Below, one piece after another: positions 17,374 to 28,202 of a DNA stretch of 64,000 nt; the first letter of the stretch is position 1; every line of letters starts with the position of its first letter. Source of the stretch: Actinomycetota bacterium (GTDB taxonomy: Bacteria > Actinomycetota > UBA4738 > HRBIN12). The stretch is from assembly GCA_035640355.1 (NCBI GenBank), contig DASQWI010000012.1, positions 1 to 64,000 on the forward strand. Direction: 5' to 3'. The position numbers and the translations under genes are program-made. Under the pieces are notes generated by a model. The model was not told the origin of the DNA and ran no database searches. It saw nothing but the letters and a program-made list of their open reading frames with translations.

Positions 17374-18207
17374 ATGAAGCAGAAGGAGAAGGAGAAGCTC
17401 GAGGAGAAGCGGCCCGACCGCATCACGAAAAAGGCGTATCAGAAGGAGCTCCTCCGTCTCCAGGAAGAGCTGGTGAAGATGGAGGACTGGGTCAAGGCCC
17501 AAGGCACGCGGGTCGTCGTGGTGTTCGAAGGTCGTGATGCGGCGGGCAAGGGCGGTGTCATCAAGCGGATCACCCAGTTCACGAACCCCCGTGTCACGCG
17601 GATCGTCGCGCTCCCCAAACCGACCGAACGCGAACGCACGCAGTGGTACTTCGAGCGCTACGTGGCCGAGATGCCCGCTGCGGGCGAGATCGTTCTGTTC
17701 GACCGCTCCTGGTACAACCGCGCCGGCGTGGAGAAGGTCCTCGGCTTCTGTACGCCTGAAGAGCACCGCCGGTTCCTCCGTCAGTGTCCTGTGTTCGAGC
17801 GCCTGCTCATCGAGGACGGCATCAACCTCATCAAGTACTGGTTCTCCGTGAGCGACGAGGAGCAGGAGAGGAGATTCAAGGCACGCGTGGACGACCGCAT
17901 GCGCCGGTGGAAGCTATCCGAGACCGACCTGTATTCGCGTACGCGGTGGGTGGATTACTCCCGTGCGAAAGACGAGATGTTCGTCCATACGGACATCGCG
18001 GAGGCGCCGTGGTACGTCGTCGCGGCGGACGACAAGCGGAGCGCGCGCCTGAACTGCATCGCGCACCTCCTGTCGAAGGTCCCGTATCAGGAGAAGCCGC
18101 TCCCCGAGATCGAGATCCCGAAGCGGCAGAGCGACGAGGGCTACGTGCGACCGCCGCTGAACATGTACACGTACGTGCCGGACCACGCGGCGTCGCTCAC
18201 AGGTTAG
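17374..18207 (+). CDS. ppk2: Polyphosphate kinase 2
   Basis: A 277-residue P-loop kinase of the PPK2 family, which transfers phosphate between polyphosphate and nucleotides. The Walker A loop FEGRDAAGKGG is near residue 50, the lid module GVIKRITQFTNPR follows, and the Walker B/DR motif FDRSWYNRAGVE is near residue 110. The N-terminus is highly charged (KQKEKEKLEEKR), and the C-terminus ends in a proline-rich MYTYVPDH. Length and motifs fit single-domain PPK2 (class I type, ADP to ATP or GDP to GTP). It heads a run of same-strand genes including a YbhN-type membrane protein 18 nt downstream. Confidence 0.93.
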   Translation: MKQKEKEKLEEKRPDRITKKAYQKELLRLQEELVKMEDWVKAQGTRVVVVFEGRDAAGKGGVIKRITQFTNPRVTRIVALPKPTERERTQWYFERYVAEMPAAGEIVLFDRSWYNRAGVEKVLGFCTPEEHRRFLRQCPVFERLLIEDGINLIKYWFSVSDEEQERRFKARVDDRMRRWKLSETDLYSRTRWVDYSRAKDEMFVHTDIAEAPWYVVAADDKRSARLNCIAHLLSKVPYQEKPLPEIEIPKRQSDEGYVRPPLNMYTYVPDHAASLTG

Positions 18208-18225: not shown

Positions 18226-19326
18226 ATGACAGTCACCGACGTCGCGACGCCCAGGAAGTCCGGCCGCAGCAAGCGGACCCGGCGTATCGTCGGCGCGCTC
18301 ATCTCGCTCGTCATCGTCGTCGCGATCTTCGTGTACGCGATTCCCCAGATCGCCGATTACTCCGCGGTCTGGGCGACGATCTCGTCGCTGACACCGGTCG
18401 AGCTGTGGTCGCTGGTCGGCGCGATGGTGTTCAACCTCGTCACCTACTGGCTGCTGAACATGGCCGCGCTGCCCGGACTGAAGTTCGCGCAGTCCGCCGT
18501 GCTCACGCAGACGACCACGTCGGTCGCGAACACCCTGCCGGCGGGGGGCGCTGTCGCAGTCGGGCTGACGTACAGCATGCTCCGGTCGTGGGGCTTCGGA
18601 GGCCAGGACATCGCCCTGTACGTCGGCGTCACGGGCATTTGGAACATCTTCCTCAAGCTCGGCCTGCCGATCATCTCGCTCGCGCTCCTCGCCATCACCG
18701 GTCAGGCCAATGCGGCGCTCGTCCTTGCGGCGTTGGTCGGTCTCGCCGTCCTCGCGGTCGCCGTCGCTTTGTTCGCGCTCGCGCTGTGGAAGAAGGAGCT
18801 CGCGCGTCGGATCGGCGATCGGCTTGGAAGGATCGCGTCCGCGCTCGTCAGGCCCTTCGGAAGGCCGCCCATCACCACGTGGGGCGAGCAGGCAGTGGCG
18901 TTCCGGAAGAGAACGATCGTGCTCGTCGCGCGGCGATGGGTGGCGATCACGCTCACGACCGTCGTCTCGCATCTCGCGTTGTGGTTCGTCCTGCTCCTCG
19001 CCCTACGGCACGTGGGCGTCTCCGAATCCCAGGTCTCGACGCTCCAAGTCCTCGCGGTGTTCGCGTTCGGACGGCTGCTCACCGCGCTGCCGCTGACGCC
19101 CGGCGGACTCGGAGTGGTGGAGCTCGGCTACATCGGTGGACTCGTCGCGGCCGGCGGGAGTCGCCCGCAGGTGGTCGCGGCCGTCCTCCTATTCCGCGTT
19201 CTTACCTACGGCGTCCAGATCCCCATCGGCGGGTTCACGTACCTCATCTGGCGGGCGCGATCGGGGTGGCGACGCGGGAACGACGAAGACGCCGGGAGCG
19301 GGCCCGCGCCTGTCGCCTCGAGCTAG
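18226..19326 (+). CDS. YbhN/UPF0104-type integral membrane protein (LPG synthase TM-domain family)
   Basis: A 366-residue protein with about eight membrane helices, starting after a basic N-terminus (RKSGRSKRTRR). It has the family patterns NTLPAGGAVAVGLTYSMLRSWG and FGRLLTALPLTPGGLGVVELGYIGGL, as in the flippase-like membrane half of MprF and in stand-alone YbhN proteins. No lysyl-transferase domain is attached. Such proteins are thought to move or bind lipids; the substrate here is unknown. A GAGAGG lies upstream of ATG 18226. It sits 18 nt after ppk2 and 4 nt before a binding lipoprotein, so an operon is likely. Confidence 0.83.
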   Translation: MTVTDVATPRKSGRSKRTRRIVGALISLVIVVAIFVYAIPQIADYSAVWATISSLTPVELWSLVGAMVFNLVTYWLLNMAALPGLKFAQSAVLTQTTTSVANTLPAGGAVAVGLTYSMLRSWGFGGQDIALYVGVTGIWNIFLKLGLPIISLALLAITGQANAALVLAALVGLAVLAVAVALFALALWKKELARRIGDRLGRIASALVRPFGRPPITTWGEQAVAFRKRTIVLVARRWVAITLTTVVSHLALWFVLLLALRHVGVSESQVSTLQVLAVFAFGRLLTALPLTPGGLGVVELGYIGGLVAAGGSRPQVVAAVLLFRVLTYGVQIPIGGFTYLIWRARSGWRRGNDEDAGSGPAPVASS

Positions 19327-19330
19327 CGCG

Positions 19331-20254
19331 ATGGGTACGCGCGCCGTAGGGATCGTGTCGATCGTGTTGTCGCTCGCGGCGTGCGGCCCCAATGTCCCGC
19401 AGACGACATCGACGCTGAACGACGACGCGATCACGGTGGCATCGTTCGAGTTCCCGGAGAGCATGGTCCTTGGCGAGATCTACGCGCAGGCGCTCGAAGC
19501 CGAGGGCTTCGACGTGGAGCGCCAGCTGGGCATCGGGCCGCGCGAGTTGGTCGAACCGTCGCTCGAGCGGGGACTCGTCGAGCTCGTCCCCGAATACGCC
19601 GGTTCAGCGCTTGAGTTCCTCGCCGGCGGCGAGAACATCGCAACCTCCGATGAAGAGCTGACACACGCTCGACTGGTCGATGCATTCGCCGAGCGGGGGG
19701 TCGACGTGCTCACGCCCGCGCCGGCCCAGAACCAGAACGGCTTCGCCGTCGCCCAAAAGACGGCCAAGCGCAATGGCCTGGAGGCGATCAGCGACCTGAC
19801 GGCGATCGACGAGGACCTCGCGTTCGGTGGCCCACCCGAGTGCCCCGAACGTCCGCTGTGTCTCGACGGTCTGGAGAGCACCTACGGTCTCGAGTTCGAC
19901 CGATTCGTGACGCTCGACGCGGGCGGTCCGCTCACGGTGTCGGCGCTCCAAGCCGGTACGGTCGACGTCGCGCTCCTGTTCACCACCGATGCCGCGATCC
20001 AAGAGAACGACTTCGTGCTGCTCGAGGACGATCGCGGCCTTCAGCCGGCCGAGAACGTCACGCCCGTCGTTCGAGACGAGGTGATCGAGCGCCATGGTGA
20101 TCGGTTCGTCGGAGTGGTCGACGCCGTGTCGCGGTTGATCACGACGGCGGAGTTGCGCGCGCTGAACGCGAGCGTCGCGCTCGAAGACGCGTCGCCGGAG
20201 CGCGTCGCTGCGACGTGGCTCGCCGAGCATGGGCTGCTCGACGCGAGGGACTAG
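19331..20254 (+). CDS. Glycine betaine/choline-type ABC transporter substrate-binding lipoprotein
   Basis: A 307-residue lipoprotein. The signal peptide ends in a lipobox (LSLAACGPN), so the mature cysteine would be lipidated outside the membrane. The body matches the OpuAC/OsmF type II binding fold: ITVASFEFPESMVLGEIYAQALEAEG at the start, VELVPEYAGSALEF, and the late segment on VTPVVRDEVIERHGD. Known members bind glycine betaine, choline or related quaternary amines. No permease or ATPase gene accompanies it: the gene lies between a YbhN protein and a PAP2-like/kinase fusion. It could serve a distant transporter or a non-transport sensing role. Its lysine, aromatic and aspartate ligand residues cannot be placed with confidence by eye. 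Confidence 0.8.
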   Translation: MGTRAVGIVSIVLSLAACGPNVPQTTSTLNDDAITVASFEFPESMVLGEIYAQALEAEGFDVERQLGIGPRELVEPSLERGLVELVPEYAGSALEFLAGGENIATSDEELTHARLVDAFAERGVDVLTPAPAQNQNGFAVAQKTAKRNGLEAISDLTAIDEDLAFGGPPECPERPLCLDGLESTYGLEFDRFVTLDAGGPLTVSALQAGTVDVALLFTTDAAIQENDFVLLEDDRGLQPAENVTPVVRDEVIERHGDRFVGVVDAVSRLITTAELRALNASVALEDASPERVAATWLAEHGLLDARD

Positions 20255-20319: not shown

Positions 20320-21975
20320 GTGGGTGGGCACCGAGCGCTCGCCCTCGGCGACGTGCGCCGTCGCCCGTCGGGTGAGCCTCCGCCTCTACCACGTGAGCTC
20401 GGTCGAAGCGGCAAGTTCTGGCTGGGCATGACGGCGTACTTCCTGTTCGTCCTGATCGCCGTCGTCGTGTTCGACGGCTTCGGTGACGTCTTCGATCGGT
20501 TCAACACCGAGCGGATCCTCGACGTCGCGGCGCTCCGCACGACCTGGCTCACCGACGTGGCCGAGTTCGTCGCCGCGCTCGGCAATCCTTGGACGATCCG
20601 GATCTTGCGCTGGGGCACCATCCTTGCGCTGGTCGTCGTCAAGCGATGGCGCCACCTGTTCGTGTTCCTCGGCGCGATCGTGGTGCTGGAGATCCTCACG
20701 TACCAGATGACGATCGCGCTCGGCCGGCCGCGTCCGCTCGGGGTCGAGATCATCGGCTCGTGGGAAGGGTTCGCCACTCCGTCCCGCCCGGTTGCGTCGT
20801 TCGCCGGCACCCTGGTCGGCGTGCTGTACTCGCTCGTCGTTCCCGGTCGTCCTCGGAACATGGGGAAGTGGATCGCCGGCGTGGCGATCGTCACGCTCGC
20901 CGTGTCGCGCGTGTACCTGGCCGTCGACCGGCCGACAGACGTCGTCTACGCCGGCATCTTCGGGGTTGCCGTCGTGCTCGTGGCGTTTCGCTGGTTCGCG
21001 CCGAACGAGGCGTTCCCGGTCGCATACCGCCGTGGCAAGTCGGCGCACCTGGACGTTGGTGGTCGTCGCGGAGAAGCGATCGTGAAGGCGGTTCGCGAAC
21101 AGGTCGGTCTGACCGTGCTCGACATCAAGCCCGTCGGCCTCGAAGGCTCCGGGGGATCGACGCCGCTCCGTCTCCGCGTCGCGGCCACCGAGTCCGAACC
21201 CGAGCAGTACCTGTTCGCGAAGCTCTACGCGAAGAACCACGTCCGCGCGGACCGCTGGTACAAGCTCGGACGAACGATCCTGTATGGCGCGCTGGAAGAT
21301 GAGACACCGTTCCAGAACGTCCGCCGCTTCGTCGAGTACGAGGACTACACGTTGCGACTGCTCCAGGACTCGGGCCTTCCCACCGCCAAGCCGTACGGCA
21401 TCGTGGAGATCACTCCGGAGCGCGAGTACATGATCGTCACCGAGTTCTTCAAGGGAGCCGTCGAGATCGGGGAGGCCGAGGTCGACGAGCGCGTGATCGA
21501 CGGCGGCCTCCGGCTGATCCGGAACATGTGGGACGCGGGTCTCGCGCATCGCGACATCAAGCCGGCCAACCTTATGGTTCGAGACGGCGAGGTCTTGCTG
21601 ATCGACGTGTTCTTCGTACAGGTTCGGCCTTCGCCGTGGCGACAGGCCGTCGACCTGGCGAACATGATGCTCGTCCTCGCACTCCGGTCCGACGCCAAGA
21701 GCGTCTACGAAGCCGCGCTCGACTACTTCACCGAAGACGAGATCGCCGAGGCGTTCGCGGCTACGCGCGGCGTGGCCAGTCCGACACAGCTGCGGACGGA
21801 GATGAAGCGCGACGACCGGGACCTCCTCGCGGAGTTCCGCGCGCTGGCGCCCGAGCGCGAGCCGATCAGGATCCAGCGGTGGAGCCTCCGCCGCGTCGGC
21901 ATGACGGCGTGGGTGGTTGCGGTGTCCCTGTTCGCGCTTCTGCTCGTGATCAGCAACTGGAACGTGTTCTCGTGA
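20320..21975 (+). CDS. Fusion of a degenerate PAP2-like membrane domain with a protein-kinase-like domain
   Basis: About 551 residues: six predicted membrane helices of PAP2 type, then a kinase-like domain, then one C-terminal helix (TAWVVAVSLFALLLVISNW). The PAP2 motifs are degraded: the KX6RP lysine is threonine (TIALGRPRP), PSGH reads PSRP, and the histidine of SRX5HX3D is aspartate (SRVYLAVDRPTD). All three catalytic residues are therefore missing. The kinase part looks intact: LFAKLYAK (ATP lysine), EYEDYTLRLL (helix C glutamate), HRDIKPANLM (catalytic loop) and LIDVFF in place of DFG. It resembles RIO/KdkA/AarF-like atypical kinases. The start is unclear: GTG 20320 is the first standard codon after the previous stop, while GAGGGG (20278-20283) points at an in-frame ACG at 20290. 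Confidence 0.75.
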   Translation: MGGHRALALGDVRRRPSGEPPPLPRELGRSGKFWLGMTAYFLFVLIAVVVFDGFGDVFDRFNTERILDVAALRTTWLTDVAEFVAALGNPWTIRILRWGTILALVVVKRWRHLFVFLGAIVVLEILTYQMTIALGRPRPLGVEIIGSWEGFATPSRPVASFAGTLVGVLYSLVVPGRPRNMGKWIAGVAIVTLAVSRVYLAVDRPTDVVYAGIFGVAVVLVAFRWFAPNEAFPVAYRRGKSAHLDVGGRRGEAIVKAVREQVGLTVLDIKPVGLEGSGGSTPLRLRVAATESEPEQYLFAKLYAKNHVRADRWYKLGRTILYGALEDETPFQNVRRFVEYEDYTLRLLQDSGLPTAKPYGIVEITPEREYMIVTEFFKGAVEIGEAEVDERVIDGGLRLIRNMWDAGLAHRDIKPANLMVRDGEVLLIDVFFVQVRPSPWRQAVDLANMMLVLALRSDAKSVYEAALDYFTEDEIAEAFAATRGVASPTQLRTEMKRDDRDLLAEFRALAPEREPIRIQRWSLRRVGMTAWVVAVSLFALLLVISNWNVFS

Positions 21976-22541
21976 GGTTCACGAGACCCGCCGTCGTGCT
22001 CGGCGTCTGTCTCGTCCTGCTCGCGAGCTGCGAGTCCCGCCAGCTCCAGCAGGTCACGTGCGAACCGGGCGACGCGAGCCTGATCCTGGTGGCGCAGGCG
22101 GTGCCGACGGCGACGCTCCTCCCGTGCATCGCCGAGTTTCCGGTCGGGTGGATCTTCGGCGGCTCCGAGATCCGGAGCGGGTCCGTGCGCTTCTGGCTCG
22201 ACTCGGACCGAGCGGGACTCCAGGCGCTCGAGGTGCGGCTGAGCAGACAGTGCGACGTCTCGAACGCCGTCGAGGTCACACCAGGCGCCGACGAGGCCGG
22301 CACTCGCCGTTTCGAGGAGCCCATCAGCCTGCCGCCGAGATTCGTCGCCAACCGGTACTACCTGTTCGATGGTGGATGCGTGACCTATCGTTTCGCCTTC
22401 AACGTCAACGCATCGCCCACGCTGTCGTTCGACGTGGACGAGGCCCTCGCTTTCCGCCCCCGCGCCGCGCTCGTGAAGGAGATGCGGGAACAGGTCGGCC
22501 TGGAGCTCTGCGGTGCGGGCGCCAGCCCGTGCCCCGGTTGA
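21972..22541 (+). CDS. Putative lipoprotein of unknown function
   Basis: A 189-residue protein that I do not recognise. The N-terminus MRFTRPAVVLGVCLVLLASC is a clear lipoprotein signal with lipobox LASC. The mature part has several cysteines (including one pair around CEPGDASLI...LPCIAEF and one in QCDVSN, one in GGCVTYRF) and a mostly beta-strand look with FWLDSDRAGLQALEVRLSRQ. The C-terminus ends LELCGAGASPCPG. The GTG start overlaps the stop of the PAP2-like/kinase fusion by four bases (GTGA), so it is translationally coupled to it and is likely a functional partner outside the membrane. Confidence 0.7.
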   Translation: MRFTRPAVVLGVCLVLLASCESRQLQQVTCEPGDASLILVAQAVPTATLLPCIAEFPVGWIFGGSEIRSGSVRFWLDSDRAGLQALEVRLSRQCDVSNAVEVTPGADEAGTRRFEEPISLPPRFVANRYYLFDGGCVTYRFAFNVNASPTLSFDVDEALAFRPRAALVKEMREQVGLELCGAGASPCPG

Positions 22542-22551
22542 TCGACGCTCT

Positions 22552-23232
22552 GTGCTGACGAATCACCGTCGCGCGCTCGCGTACGCCGTCGGGCTGCTGG
22601 TCGCCACGGTCGTCGTGTTCCTGTTGGTGGCGTTCGACTCGACGCTCACGTCCGTGCAGACGGTGGACGACGTGGTCTATCGACGCGCGAACGAGCTCCG
22701 GTTCGGTGTGGCGACCGCGCTTGCGCGGGTGCTGAATGTGCTCGGGAGCGGTTGGGTGCTCATCCCGCTCAGGATCGCGGTGGCGGTGTGGCTCGGAGCT
22801 CGGCGGCGATGGCGGGCGCTGGCCGCGTGGCTGCTGATCTGGTTCGTATCCGAGGTCGCGATCAACCTGTTCAAGGCGTGGTACGAGCGCCCCCGACCGC
22901 CGGGCTCGCTCGTAGCGACGAGGGGGTTCTCGTTCCCTTCGGGACACGCCGTTGCAACGGCAGCGACCGCGATCGGGCTGGTGCTTGTCCTTCTCCCACC
23001 CGGGCATCGTCGCCGGCACTGGGAGGTCTATTCGGTCGTGTTCGCGTTCGTTATGGCGCTTTCGCGCGTGTACCTCAACGCGCACTGGCTCAGCGACGTG
23101 GTGGCGGGAACGCTGCTCGGCGCCACGATCGCGCTCGCGGTCGCGGGGCTCGTCACGGAGGTGCACGACGTGGTGATGAAGCGACGGGCGCGATCAAACG
23201 TGTCGTCGGTCGCCGTTCCCGTGCGGCGGTAG
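22552..23232 (+). CDS. PAP2-family membrane phosphatase
   Basis: A 226-residue six-helix membrane protein with all three PAP2 motifs intact: KAWYERPRP (KX6RP), FPSGHAVAT (PSGH) and SRVYLNAHWLSD (SRX5HX3D). Such enzymes hydrolyse lipid phosphates or pyrophosphates, such as undecaprenyl pyrophosphate or phosphatidic acid, on the outer face of the membrane. Start GTG 22552 lies 10 nt after the lipoprotein stop; the frame can extend upstream only by overlapping that gene. It is the catalytically competent neighbour of the degenerate PAP2-like/kinase fusion. Confidence 0.87.
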   Translation: MLTNHRRALAYAVGLLVATVVVFLLVAFDSTLTSVQTVDDVVYRRANELRFGVATALARVLNVLGSGWVLIPLRIAVAVWLGARRRWRALAAWLLIWFVSEVAINLFKAWYERPRPPGSLVATRGFSFPSGHAVATAATAIGLVLVLLPPGHRRRHWEVYSVVFAFVMALSRVYLNAHWLSDVVAGTLLGATIALAVAGLVTEVHDVVMKRRARSNVSSVAVPVRR

Positions 23233-23236
23233 TACG

Positions 23237-23863
23237 TCAGCCGCTCCCGTCGCGACTCGGCGCGTGAAGGCGCTCGAACGACGCCGCCTCGTCGTCCGAC
23301 ATCCAATCCGGCCGAATGCCGTGGCCGGCGGTCGAGATGTGATTCTCTTCGACCTCTTCGCCGTACTCCCATGCCTCACCGCGTCGGACGGCCAGGAGCG
23401 CGTTGATCTCGCCGGCGTGGTAGTGCCAGTGGCCGGCGACGATCACGAGGATCTGTGAGACGGGGAGTGCGCCGCCCCAGTGAACTGGCCGCGGTTCGTC
23501 GAGGTCGTCGATCCCGTCGAGTGAGACGACCCACGCCGTGTACGAACGCTCGAACCAGTCGACGACCTCGGCGAGGTAGCCCTCGGTGGGCTCGATCGTG
23601 TCTCTTCGATCACGCGGCCAGTCGGTTTCCATCCAGTGACGCGGCTCGGAGTCGAACGCGTAGGAGCGGTAGACGGCGCTCCACGCGGCGACGTGCTTGG
23701 TCAGACCGAGGATCGAGCGGTACCCGCCCGCCGCGAACAGGGCCTCGTCCAGCGAGACGCCGTGGACGTTCTCGACGAAGGCGCGGCGCGCCTCCTCGAG
23801 CATCTCCCGCGCGAGTGTGCGATCCGTCCCCACGTCGCGATGATGCCACGCCCGCCAAGGCAT
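23237..23863 (-). CDS. DinB-family protein
   Basis: A 208-residue four-helix-bundle protein of the DinB/DUF664 group. The candidate metal ligands are a histidine in LTKHVAAWS and the pair in VAGHWHYHAGEINALL. Helix patterns at ERSYTAWVVSLDG and EMLEEARRAF fit. In actinobacteria many such proteins are thiol transferases (mycothiol- or bacillithiol-dependent S-transferases), but no specific role is visible. ATG 23863 gives a normal N-terminus, yet it would overlap the 5' end of the divergent PAP2 gene; a downstream GTG (residue 11) would remove part of the overlap. It is convergent with the previous PAP2 gene, only 4 nt apart. Confidence 0.75.
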   Translation of the reverse strand: MPWRAWHHRDVGTDRTLAREMLEEARRAFVENVHGVSLDEALFAAGGYRSILGLTKHVAAWSAVYRSYAFDSEPRHWMETDWPRDRRDTIEPTEGYLAEVVDWFERSYTAWVVSLDGIDDLDEPRPVHWGGALPVSQILVIVAGHWHYHAGEINALLAVRRGEAWEYGEEVEENHISTAGHGIRPDWMSDDEAASFERLHAPSRDGSG

Positions 23864-24538
23864 AGGGTTCGGTGCGTGTATCGGCGCTGGCGTGTCGACG
23901 GTGCGCTCTTCGCCGTTAGTGTCGTCGTCCTGGCGTTGTCGATGCTCGTGGCGAGGGGCGACGAGGTGCCGGCGTGGGAGGAGACGGTCTTCCGATGGGT
24001 GAACGGGCTCCCCGACTTCTTGTATCCCATCGTGTGGCCGCTGATGCAGTACGGGACGTTCATCACCATCCCCATCGTGTTCGTCCTCGGCCTGCTGGTG
24101 AAGCGGTGGCGCTTCGCCATCGTCTCGCTCGTCGTCGGCGTGGGGATCTACTACCTGGCGAAGGCCGTGAAGCTCGTCGTCGACCGAGGCCGTCCGGGCG
24201 CCGAGCTCGTCGGTGACTTGGAGCTTCGTGGTGTCGGTCGATTCGGCCACGGATTCCCGTCGGGGCACGCGGCGGTATCCGCCGCGCTCGCGGTGATCGC
24301 GTCGGCATACCTCCCGCCTCTGTGGGGCCGGCTTTCGATCGCGCTCGCGGTGATCGTGAGCTTCGGCCGCGTGTACGTCGGCGCGCACTTGCCCCTCGAC
24401 GTGATCGGTGGTGCGGCGCTGGGCGTCGCGGTAGCCGCAGCCGTCAACCTCATCATCGGCGTCCCGACGAACGTGAAGGCACCAGCCCCTCGCACCACCG
24501 CAGAGTCACGCAACCGTGAGGGAACCACCACCGGCTAG
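23840..24538 (+). CDS. PAP2-family membrane phosphatase
   Basis: About 232 residues with six membrane helices. PAP2 motifs: KLVVDRGRP (KX6RP), FPSGHAAVS (PSGH) and FGRVYVGAHLPLD, where the usual serine-arginine is glycine-arginine but the catalytic histidine and aspartate are kept. It should be active on a lipid phosphate. Starts at ATG 23840/23843 overlap the DinB gene on the opposite strand; GTG 23876, before YRRWRVDGALFAVS, would avoid that and keep the first helix. The C-terminal tail is basic and threonine-rich. This is the third PAP2-fold gene within 4.3 kb. Confidence 0.83.
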   Translation: MMPRPPRHRVRCVYRRWRVDGALFAVSVVVLALSMLVARGDEVPAWEETVFRWVNGLPDFLYPIVWPLMQYGTFITIPIVFVLGLLVKRWRFAIVSLVVGVGIYYLAKAVKLVVDRGRPGAELVGDLELRGVGRFGHGFPSGHAAVSAALAVIASAYLPPLWGRLSIALAVIVSFGRVYVGAHLPLDVIGGAALGVAVAAAVNLIIGVPTNVKAPAPRTTAESRNREGTTTG

Positions 24539-26072: not shown

Positions 26073-28202
26073 TTATGCTGCAGGGATTGGGACCCGACCA
26101 AAGACGTTCGTGCCGCGGCCCGGAACCGACTTGATCTCCAGGCGTCCGCCGAGTGCGGCAAGGCGATCGCTCATGTTCTGCAGCCCCATTCCGAGCGGGG
26201 TCGCCTCCGGGTCGAAGCCTTTGCCGTCGTCGATTACGGACACGTCGATGTCGCCTTCCCACTCGCGCAGTTGGATCGTCACGCTCGACGCCTCCGCGTA
26301 CTTCGCTACGTTCTGGAGCGCCTCGAGCACGAAGAAGTAGATCGCAGCCTCGATATCGGGCGGATACCGCTCGACCCCGTCGAACTCGAACGCGACAGGC
26401 ACTGGCGTCCGCCGCGCCTGCGCTTCGAGGGCCGGCTGGAGTCCACGGTCGGCGAGCAGCGGCGGATAGATCCCCCGTGCAAGGTCCCGAAGGCTGTCCA
26501 AGGCCTCCTGCGCGTCGTGCTCGATCGCCTGAAGTGCCCGGCGTTGCTCCTCGTCTTTCCCGATGAGGTTCTCTGCGAGGCGAACCTTGACTGCCAGCGC
26601 CACCAGTTGCTGCTGTGCACCGTCGTGCAGATTCCGTTCCAGACGGCGGCGTTCTTCGTCTTGTGCGGCTACAAGACGCTGCCGCGACGAACGGAGGTCC
26701 TCGATCAAGCGGAAGTCGTTGAGCACGAGCCCCGCTTGCACGCTCAGCTCCTCGATCAACTTCTCCTCCGCCGGTCGGATCGGGTCCCGCGGCGGCTTCG
26801 ACACGGTGAGCGCACCGAGCAGCTCGTCGCCGTGCCGCACGGGGACGGCAGCGGCCGCGCCGGGAAACGAAGGCAGCTCGCCGTTCACGAGCGGTCTCGA
26901 AGGACCCGGATCGCCTTCGGTCGGCCACGTCGCGTCGGGCCGCAGCGCCGACCGCACGCGGAGCCACACGGTGGCTTGTGTCGCGCCGGTTCCCTCGGCC
27001 AACAATCTCGCCATGCGAGGCAGGATGTCCTCGCCCGCGTAAGCCGCCGCGACGCTTTCGGAGAATCCGGACAGCACCTCGTACGGCGTCGCCCGCTTGC
27101 CGTATACGAGCCGATTCGCCGCGTGTCGCGCTCGCTCTCGCACCGGGTGCGCGGCGACGGCGACGATCGCGGTGGCGATCAGCGCGAGACCCTCGGTGGG
27201 ACCGAATATCGCGCCGATCACGACGACAACCACGACGTAGACGACCGTGATGAACGCGCCGAGCAGGCCGTACACGATCGCCTTCCCGATCAGGACGTCG
27301 ATGTCGTACAGGTGGTATCTGAGCATGGCGACGGCGATCGAGCCGTCGAGCACGACCAGCGAGGCGTTGAAGACCAGACCGGTACTGGCTGTGTCCGCGA
27401 AGATCGCGACGCAGAACGACACGGCGACGACGGCGGCCGCGCTCACGAACCACTTCAGCTGGAGTCGTTCCTCGCCGACCGAACTGCGGAACCGCGCGAT
27501 GAGCGATACGGCGGATGCGAAGACGGCGAGGACGAGCGCCACGACCGATACGGTGACGAGGACCACCGCAATTGTGGCGACGCCTCCCTTCGAGACGGCG
27601 TCCTCGAAGTCGATGAACGGACGCTCCCAGATCGCTGTGGCGAACACCAGCATGCTCGCCGGCGCCAGGACCAAGATCGCAGCGCATACCCACGCGAGCG
27701 GTCGCCAGCGTGCGGAAGGCAGACGACCGGTCGGGAACAACAGGAAGAGCCACGGCAACAGACAGATGGCGATCGGCTCGATCCACGTCCCAAGCCACGC
27801 GACCGCACGCCCCGCCGGGAGCGAGTTCGGGTCGGCCACCAGAGCGTGGAGCGCATACGAGCGCGCGAAGCTCGAGATCGAGAGGGCGGCACCTGCGATG
27901 AGCAGCAGCCAACCAATCGGGTTGTCGCGTCGACGCGACGCAATGACGATGCCGAAGATTGGAACGCAGACGTTCGCCGCGACGTCGAACACACCCCCGA
28001 CGCTCCAGGCGTCCGACACGCGTGGAAGCGTCGTCGACCGGTCGACGAACCGGAAGGCGAGCCCGCCGATCATGAACGCGATCGACGCCAGGCCGACCGA
28101 CCAGGCAACGGTGCGTGCACTGCGTGCCGTCACGGGCCCCTCCACGCTGGATTCTGACTCCAGGCGGGCGACCCTGCACTGGCACTCTTCGTCCCGCGCC
28201 AC
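26073..28202 (-). CDS. Membrane sensor histidine kinase (NarL-partner, HisKA_3 type)
   Basis: A 709-residue sensor kinase. Residues about 25-345 hold roughly ten membrane helices of an uncharacterised sensor. A GAF-like region follows (about 370-500), then the HisKA_3 dimerisation segment with the phospho-acceptor histidine in RRRLERNLHDGAQQQL near residue 523. The ATPase domain has EALQNVAKYA (N box), IDDGKGFDPE (G1) and GMGLQNMSDRL (G2). HisKA_3 kinases normally phosphorylate LuxR/NarL-type response regulators, but none is adjacent on either side. GTG 28202 is used; initiation at a later GTG before TARSARTVAWS would still keep all helices. The gene is divergent from glgE. Confidence 0.88.
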   Translation of the reverse strand: MARDEECQCRVARLESESSVEGPVTARSARTVAWSVGLASIAFMIGGLAFRFVDRSTTLPRVSDAWSVGGVFDVAANVCVPIFGIVIASRRRDNPIGWLLLIAGAALSISSFARSYALHALVADPNSLPAGRAVAWLGTWIEPIAICLLPWLFLLFPTGRLPSARWRPLAWVCAAILVLAPASMLVFATAIWERPFIDFEDAVSKGGVATIAVVLVTVSVVALVLAVFASAVSLIARFRSSVGEERLQLKWFVSAAAVVAVSFCVAIFADTASTGLVFNASLVVLDGSIAVAMLRYHLYDIDVLIGKAIVYGLLGAFITVVYVVVVVVIGAIFGPTEGLALIATAIVAVAAHPVRERARHAANRLVYGKRATPYEVLSGFSESVAAAYAGEDILPRMARLLAEGTGATQATVWLRVRSALRPDATWPTEGDPGPSRPLVNGELPSFPGAAAAVPVRHGDELLGALTVSKPPRDPIRPAEEKLIEELSVQAGLVLNDFRLIEDLRSSRQRLVAAQDEERRRLERNLHDGAQQQLVALAVKVRLAENLIGKDEEQRRALQAIEHDAQEALDSLRDLARGIYPPLLADRGLQPALEAQARRTPVPVAFEFDGVERYPPDIEAAIYFFVLEALQNVAKYAEASSVTIQLREWEGDIDVSVIDDGKGFDPEATPLGMGLQNMSDRLAALGGRLEIKSVPGRGTNVFGRVPIPAA

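Follow-up and report, generated by a model that had tools for sequence, protein, structure and literature searches.

A PAP2-fold membrane domain without its catalytic residues, joined to an intact kinase at a conserved lipid-handling locus of soil actinobacteria

The described proteins closest to the one reported here include the PgpB-type PAP2 phosphatases, the catalytically dead vertebrate PLPPR/PRG proteins and the Rio/Bud32/KdoK cluster of kinases. In Escherichia coli PgpB, replacement of the lysine in the first active-site motif (C1; K97A) leaves the enzyme fully active, whereas replacement of the histidine in the third (C3; H207A) inactivates it, so inactivity can be read from a missing C3 histidine but not from a missing C1 lysine alone (PMC7413402). 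The H207A protein binds phosphate through R104, S161 and R201, with a stabilisation of 17 °C, and a repacking of helices on phosphate binding has been inferred for it (PMC7413402). The PLPPR/PRG members of the PAP2 family are regulatory in lipid-phosphate signalling (PMC9520309), and the KdoK proteins are lipopolysaccharide sugar kinases (PMC1821047). Our literature searches for a PAP2-kinase architecture, whose coverage excluded most subscription papers, returned nothing relevant, and no experiment on any member of the family came to light.

Here we describe such an architecture in a 64,000-nucleotide stretch of actinobacterial DNA, the whole of which we call the window. A bacterial PAP2 pseudo-phosphatase joined to an active kinase would be a simple system for studying sensing by a dead phosphatase, and the family includes culturable genera (Blastococcus, Geodermatophilus and Virgisporangium), which makes it testable.

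The pseudo-PAP2 kinase and its two halves

The gene is one uninterrupted frame on the forward strand (GTG 20320 to TGA 21975; 551 amino acids), and since homology among relatives starts at about residue 11, at a conserved RRRPSGEPPPLPR motif, GTG 20320 is a reasonable start. The gene, its parts and its neighbours are as follows.

18226..19326, + strand: YbhN / LPG_synthase_TM flippase-like membrane protein; conserved neighbour
19331..20254, + strand: OpuAC-type substrate-binding lipoprotein; likely start ATG 19331; lipobox LAAC
20320..21975, + strand: pseudo-PAP2 kinase; RRRPSGEPPPLPR motif 13-25, dead PAP2 domain ~28-235, kinase ~236-520, transmembrane helix 523-550
20401..21024, + strand: PAP2-fold domain without catalytic histidines; C1 T131..R138 P139, C2 P154 S155 R156 P157, C3 R197..D203..D207
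21025..21879, + strand: linker and kinase domain; K301, E341, HRD 410-412, N417, D429, D445
21880..21972, + strand: C-terminal transmembrane helix, predicted from the model; fused relatives run on from it into ExD
21972..22541, + strand: ExD lipoprotein, an unnamed beta domain; GTG start overlaps the kinase stop (GTGA); lipobox LLASC
22513..23232, + strand: canonical PAP2 phosphatase with RP, PSGH and RX5HX3D motifs; likely start GTG 22552; conserved neighbour
23636..24538, + strand: second canonical PAP2 phosphatase (open reading frame; true start probably further in)

The original prediction, made from the letters alone, was of a degenerate PAP2 domain fused to an intact kinase domain, with both folds expected in an AlphaFold model, and both are indeed present. 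In the model of the kinase protein (AF2, 26 sequences; mean pLDDT 80.8, pTM 0.64), the PAP2 part consists of eight helical segments, and a kinase-like arrangement and a single final helix (523-550) follow. Foldseek matched its first half to Bacillus subtilis PgpB (5jki; target TM-score 0.77, rmsd 3.5 Å) and its second half to kinases, with Rio and Bud32/PRPK structures scoring highest of the listed kinases (TM-score on the target, 0.50-0.56); at a pTM of 0.64 it is uncertain how the two halves sit relative to each other. In Pfam, the PAP2 match (residues 116-228) scored 24.5 bits for the protein, just below the 27.2 cut-off, and 27.7 bits, just above it, in a six-frame search; the family profile matched the solved PgpB structure 5jki at E 9e-13. 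Kinase matches of the window protein were weak (Pfam Pkinase, Kdo, APH and RIO1; NCBIfam Bud32). A frameshift splitting two genes is out, as the frame is open here and in nearly all relatives, L066 alone having two frames. We infer that the C-terminal helix runs from inside to outside, which would place the kinase domain in the cytoplasm and ExD outside; the OpuAC-type binding protein is probably outside as well.

The three active-site replacements read from the window protein are as first described: the lysine of KX6RP is T131, PSGH has become PSRP (154-157) and the histidine of SRX5HX3D is D203, with R138, P139, S155, R197 and D207 kept. Relatives came from two overlapping samples, 30 full-length proteins from one genome sample and an Actinomycetota alignment of 82 rows from named genome contigs, for which residues were tallied over 81 relatives. 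The C1 lysine, C2 histidine and C3 histidine were each found in 0/81; in the first sample C1 was never lysine, the C3 nucleophile was never histidine, and the C2 histidine occurred once (PSTH in L067). The replacements are non-random, with the C3 histidine changed to aspartate in 77/81 and the C2 histidine to proline in 76/81. By comparison, free-standing PAP2 proteins encoded at these loci, which served as a control, retain the histidines in 71 of 75 cases (SGH in 73/75, RX5HX3D in 72/75). With the residues gone from all 81 relatives yet kept by canonical PAP2 neighbours, the catalytic-residue loss spans the whole clade, and none of its 81 members has intact PAP2 motifs.

The kinase half presents the opposite picture, just as had been proposed for a clade losing the lysine and both histidines: the window protein has K301, E341, H410-R411-D412, N417 and D429 (with DVFF where DFG is expected), and the ATP lysine, helix-C glutamate, catalytic aspartate, asparagine and metal aspartate are kept in 81/81 relatives, every row that has letters at these positions. 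Judged by the spacing criteria for the Rio/Bud32/KdoK cluster (PMC1821047), K301 and E341 lie 40 residues apart and the metal aspartate D429 lies 16 residues before the helix-F-type aspartate D445. Many positions within the kinase insert are invariant (H307, R309, D311, R312, Y314, R318, Y322, E326, D327 and E328). The RIO1 profile matched 22 of 26 members and Kdo 11 (best E 2.5e-7), the window protein falling below all cut-offs. We rejected a Hanks-type receptor kinase of the PknB kind, as the 16 residues from D429 to D445 leave no extended activation loop; a classical receptor-kinase switch is therefore not expected.

Overall, the PAP2 part is less conserved than the kinase half (mean majority residue 0.55 vs. 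0.75), and its conservation is concentrated in loops. There are 24 PAP2 columns at 90% or more, of which 22 fall in 56 loop positions (11 of 29 positions in the outward, former active-site loops and 11 of 27 in the inward loops) and 2 in the remaining 152, a tally that is descriptive, since the loops were delimited on the model once the columns had been inspected, and whose weight is limited by the generally higher conservation of loops in membrane enzymes. Nine positions (R136, R138, P139, W148, G150, P154, S155, P157 and D203) stand at 94-100%, and the family-specific W148 and G150 are located in a pocket loop. The equivalents of the phosphate-holding residues of PgpB are R138 in 81/81, S155 in 76/81 and R197 in 72/81; among the 81 relatives the C3 arginine is glutamine in 7, the C3 aspartate is glycine in 14, and the C2 glycine is mostly bulky (leucine, arginine, proline and others). 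This pattern argues that the pocket is not simply decaying, and the conserved positions fit a candidate retained binding site; with the pocket loops conserved and the kinase residues invariant, pseudogene decay is out. Because the phosphate-holding arginines and serine are kept, and because PgpB without its nucleophile binds phosphate (PMC7413402), a role for the dead PAP2 domain as a lipid-phosphate sensor is plausible by analogy. The aspartate at the nucleophile position, with its added negative charge, or the bulky replacement of the C2 glycine could close the pocket; in PgpB, G162D abolishes activity, perhaps through blocked entry (PMC7413402).

The ExD partner, the conserved locus and distant relatives

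Many relatives extend past the last kinase helix into a domain of 150-180 amino acids (ExD), which in the window is a gene of its own. In the named loci ExD is fused to the kinase in 20 copies (about a quarter) and is a separate adjacent gene in 60, and it accompanies every intact kinase copy; of the two apparent exceptions, one is a contig-end fragment (L095) and the other a spurious second match to a counted copy (L107). Pattern matching recognised a lipobox in 55 of the 61 separate ExD genes, and three or more of the remaining six look as though they have one that the pattern missed. Mapped on the kinase tree, the distribution of fused and separate ExD implies four switches of state or more, one of them a contig-end artefact (leaving at least about three real ones). 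A Pfam search with 62 ExD members gave no convincing match. The domain has three invariant cysteines (C31, C73 and C115, mature numbering) and a beta-rich model (pLDDT 95), whose structural matches to BT_1490, RseB/MucB and PsbP are weak (TM-scores ≤0.45), and we do not claim a known fold for it. At five split loci (L115, L116, L119, L120 and L145) the ExD match falls in two pieces, as if around an insert of ~60-100 residues.

The YbhN, OpuAC, kinase, ExD and PAP2 genes of the window are tightly spaced, as in an operon, and the same five make up a conserved cassette. The original prediction had pointed to two canonical PAP2 phosphatases and a YbhN protein beside the kinase, which stands, and linkage to such genes is conserved in relatives; it had overlooked ExD, the OpuAC protein and distant PAP2-kinase-flippase fusions. 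With profiles built for the window's neighbours, we found YbhN/LPG_synthase_TM in the fetched flank of 65, OpuAC of 60 and PAP2 (the second PAP2 query) of 55 of 113 kinase copies, a set that includes contigs common to both samples and many contigs that end early. Across the window's genome there are in total 2 YbhN, 2 OpuAC and 4 PAP2 matches; this locus accounts for 1, 1 and 3 of them, respectively, and the linkage of these neighbours to the kinase is far above such a background. The OpuAC gene adjoins the kinase in about half of copies, preceding it in the same orientation in the window's relatives but pointing away from it in Blastococcus and Geodermatophilus, whose YbhN and PAP2 genes come after ExD; no ABC permease or ATPase was seen near the window's OpuAC gene (19331-20254).

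Other genes surround the cassette. A PPK2-type polyphosphate kinase (17374-18207, + strand; TIGR03707, E 5e-111) lies just upstream of YbhN, and as PPK2 is beside the kinase in only 2/113 copies we do not count it as part of the system. The second canonical PAP2 gene lies beyond an antisense mycothiol-S-transferase-like gene (~23260-23850, - strand) that separates it from the first, and a membrane sensor histidine kinase (GAF, HisKA_3, HATPase_c) occupies 26073-28202 (- strand). Elsewhere, extra kinase-profile matches near the first copy, with YbhN, in L094, L100, L101 and L103 suggest local duplication of the cassette.

The dead-PAP2 membrane kinase is carried by many soil actinobacteria: named matches come from Acidimicrobiia MAGs, Geodermatophilaceae, Virgisporangium and Frankiales MAGs, and single records labelled Acidobacteria and Bacillus are probably binning or naming errors. 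Some genomes are multi-copy, with nine matching places in G052 and eight in G066, fragments included. Distant cousins (~20-28% identical) carry PAP2, a homologous kinase and LPG_synthase_TM in a single chain. In these the PAP2 and kinase halves decay in differing combinations, both active sites being intact in L023:688-3285 and L079:3314-5752 and both lost in L026, L033, L174, L177, L178 and L181; an invariant kinase with a dead PAP2 domain is seen only in the present clade.

A proposed mechanism and its relation to described systems

We read the protein as a membrane kinase that is either controlled by the turnover of lipid phosphates in the envelope or a participant in it. Because PAP2, kinase and flippase are fused in the cousins and side by side here, their linked functions point to one lipid process, and the near-obligate outside domain together with the retained pocket suggests that a ligand is sensed or presented on the outward side. 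The folds, the residues lost and kept, the ExD pairing and the conserved locus are observed, and the topology, the ligand, the direction of signalling and the kinase substrate are proposals. We tentatively favour, at a little short of even confidence, a membrane kinase whose PAP2 half is a non-catalytic module that senses lipid phosphate and steers envelope-lipid turnover. The dead pocket, with its phosphate-holding arginines and serine, would bind a lipid phosphate or related anionic lipid of the outer leaflet; ExD would report or present this ligand; a change in helix packing would be relayed from the PAP2 module to the kinase; and the output of the kinase would control or feed the turnover of envelope lipid that the adjacent PAP2 phosphatase and YbhN flippase carry out. 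Counting against this mechanism are the aspartate and the bulky C2 residues in the pocket, the replacements of the C3 arginine and aspartate in some relatives, the weak resemblance of ExD to known structures and the lack of an extended activation loop. In its boldest form the idea is of a new bacterial transmembrane signalling system: the repurposed phosphatase pocket would detect a lipid phosphate, ExD and OpuAC would convey conditions outside the cell, and the Rio/KdoK-like kinase would govern the phosphatase and flippase that remodel that same lipid. This form strikes us as doubtful.

The same genes could instead form a lipid or glycolipid kinase relay, the kinase phosphorylating a lipid-linked substrate inside, YbhN moving it and the canonical PAP2 protein dephosphorylating it outside, with the dead PAP2 domain merely holding the lipid after its phosphatase job had passed to the neighbouring gene. 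Such a relay draws on the distant single chains that unite the three domains, L023 and L079 with both active sites kept, on the adjacency of the same three activities in the window and at many loci, and on the Rio/KdoK-like features of a kinase whose KdoK counterparts phosphorylate lipopolysaccharide sugar (PMC1821047). A relay alone leaves the pairing with ExD and the presence of an OpuAC protein unaccounted for, and several paralogues in G052, G066 and G006 have no YbhN or PAP2 in the fetched flank, although many such contigs are short. We consider a relay possible without expecting it, and weight a regulated kinase somewhat more, most of the evidence being common to both and an intermediate being possible.

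Two further readings concern the PAP2 part itself. Its lower overall conservation would suit a mere membrane anchor that has lost its activity, with conserved positions that are structural and a kinase that acts on proteins; former pocket positions at 94-100% exceed the needs of an anchor, and we hold this to be improbable. Alternatively, the PAP2 part might still be an enzyme that uses D203 as nucleophile on a different substrate, as the prevalence of the aspartate and the retention of the C1 arginine, C2 serine, C3 arginine and mostly the C3 aspartate could suggest. With the C2 histidine replaced by proline in nearly all relatives and the C2 glycine made bulky, this seems very improbable, and we know of no PAP2 enzyme with an aspartate nucleophile.

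The pairing of a dead-PAP2 kinase with an outward lipoprotein, beside lipid-handling genes, suggests an undescribed route by which membrane lipids are sensed or processed from outside the cell. The locus also gives a context and a candidate function to the ExD domain, which is absent from Pfam, and to the PAP2-kinase-flippase proteins, annotated only as lysylphosphatidylglycerol synthase domain-containing proteins, a family that merits its own study. Like the window protein, these PAP2-kinase-LPG_synthase_TM fusions have a PAP2 domain ahead of a homologous kinase whose insert is similar, but their flippase, which corresponds to the YbhN neighbour here, is fused C-terminally and no ExD was seen with them, whereas YbhN is a separate gene in the window, and a Pfam search found no LPG_synthase_TM domain in the kinase protein.

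With the Rio/Bud32/KdoK cluster the kinase shares the insert between ATP lysine and helix-C glutamate and the lack of an extended activation loop; it differs in its Ser/Thr-kinase-like HRDIKPAN loop, in being membrane-bound with a PAP2 domain and in scoring below the Pfam cut-offs. With PgpB-type phosphatases it shares the fold, the C1 arginine, the C2 serine and the C3 arginine and aspartate, but it lacks the C1 lysine and the C2 and C3 histidines and has a kinase attached. Catalytic residues are replaced here as they are in PLPPR/PRG, and a regulatory role may be common to both. Two differences stand out: a kinase is attached, and the phosphate-binding residues, reported to be disturbed as well in PLPPRs, are here mostly kept.
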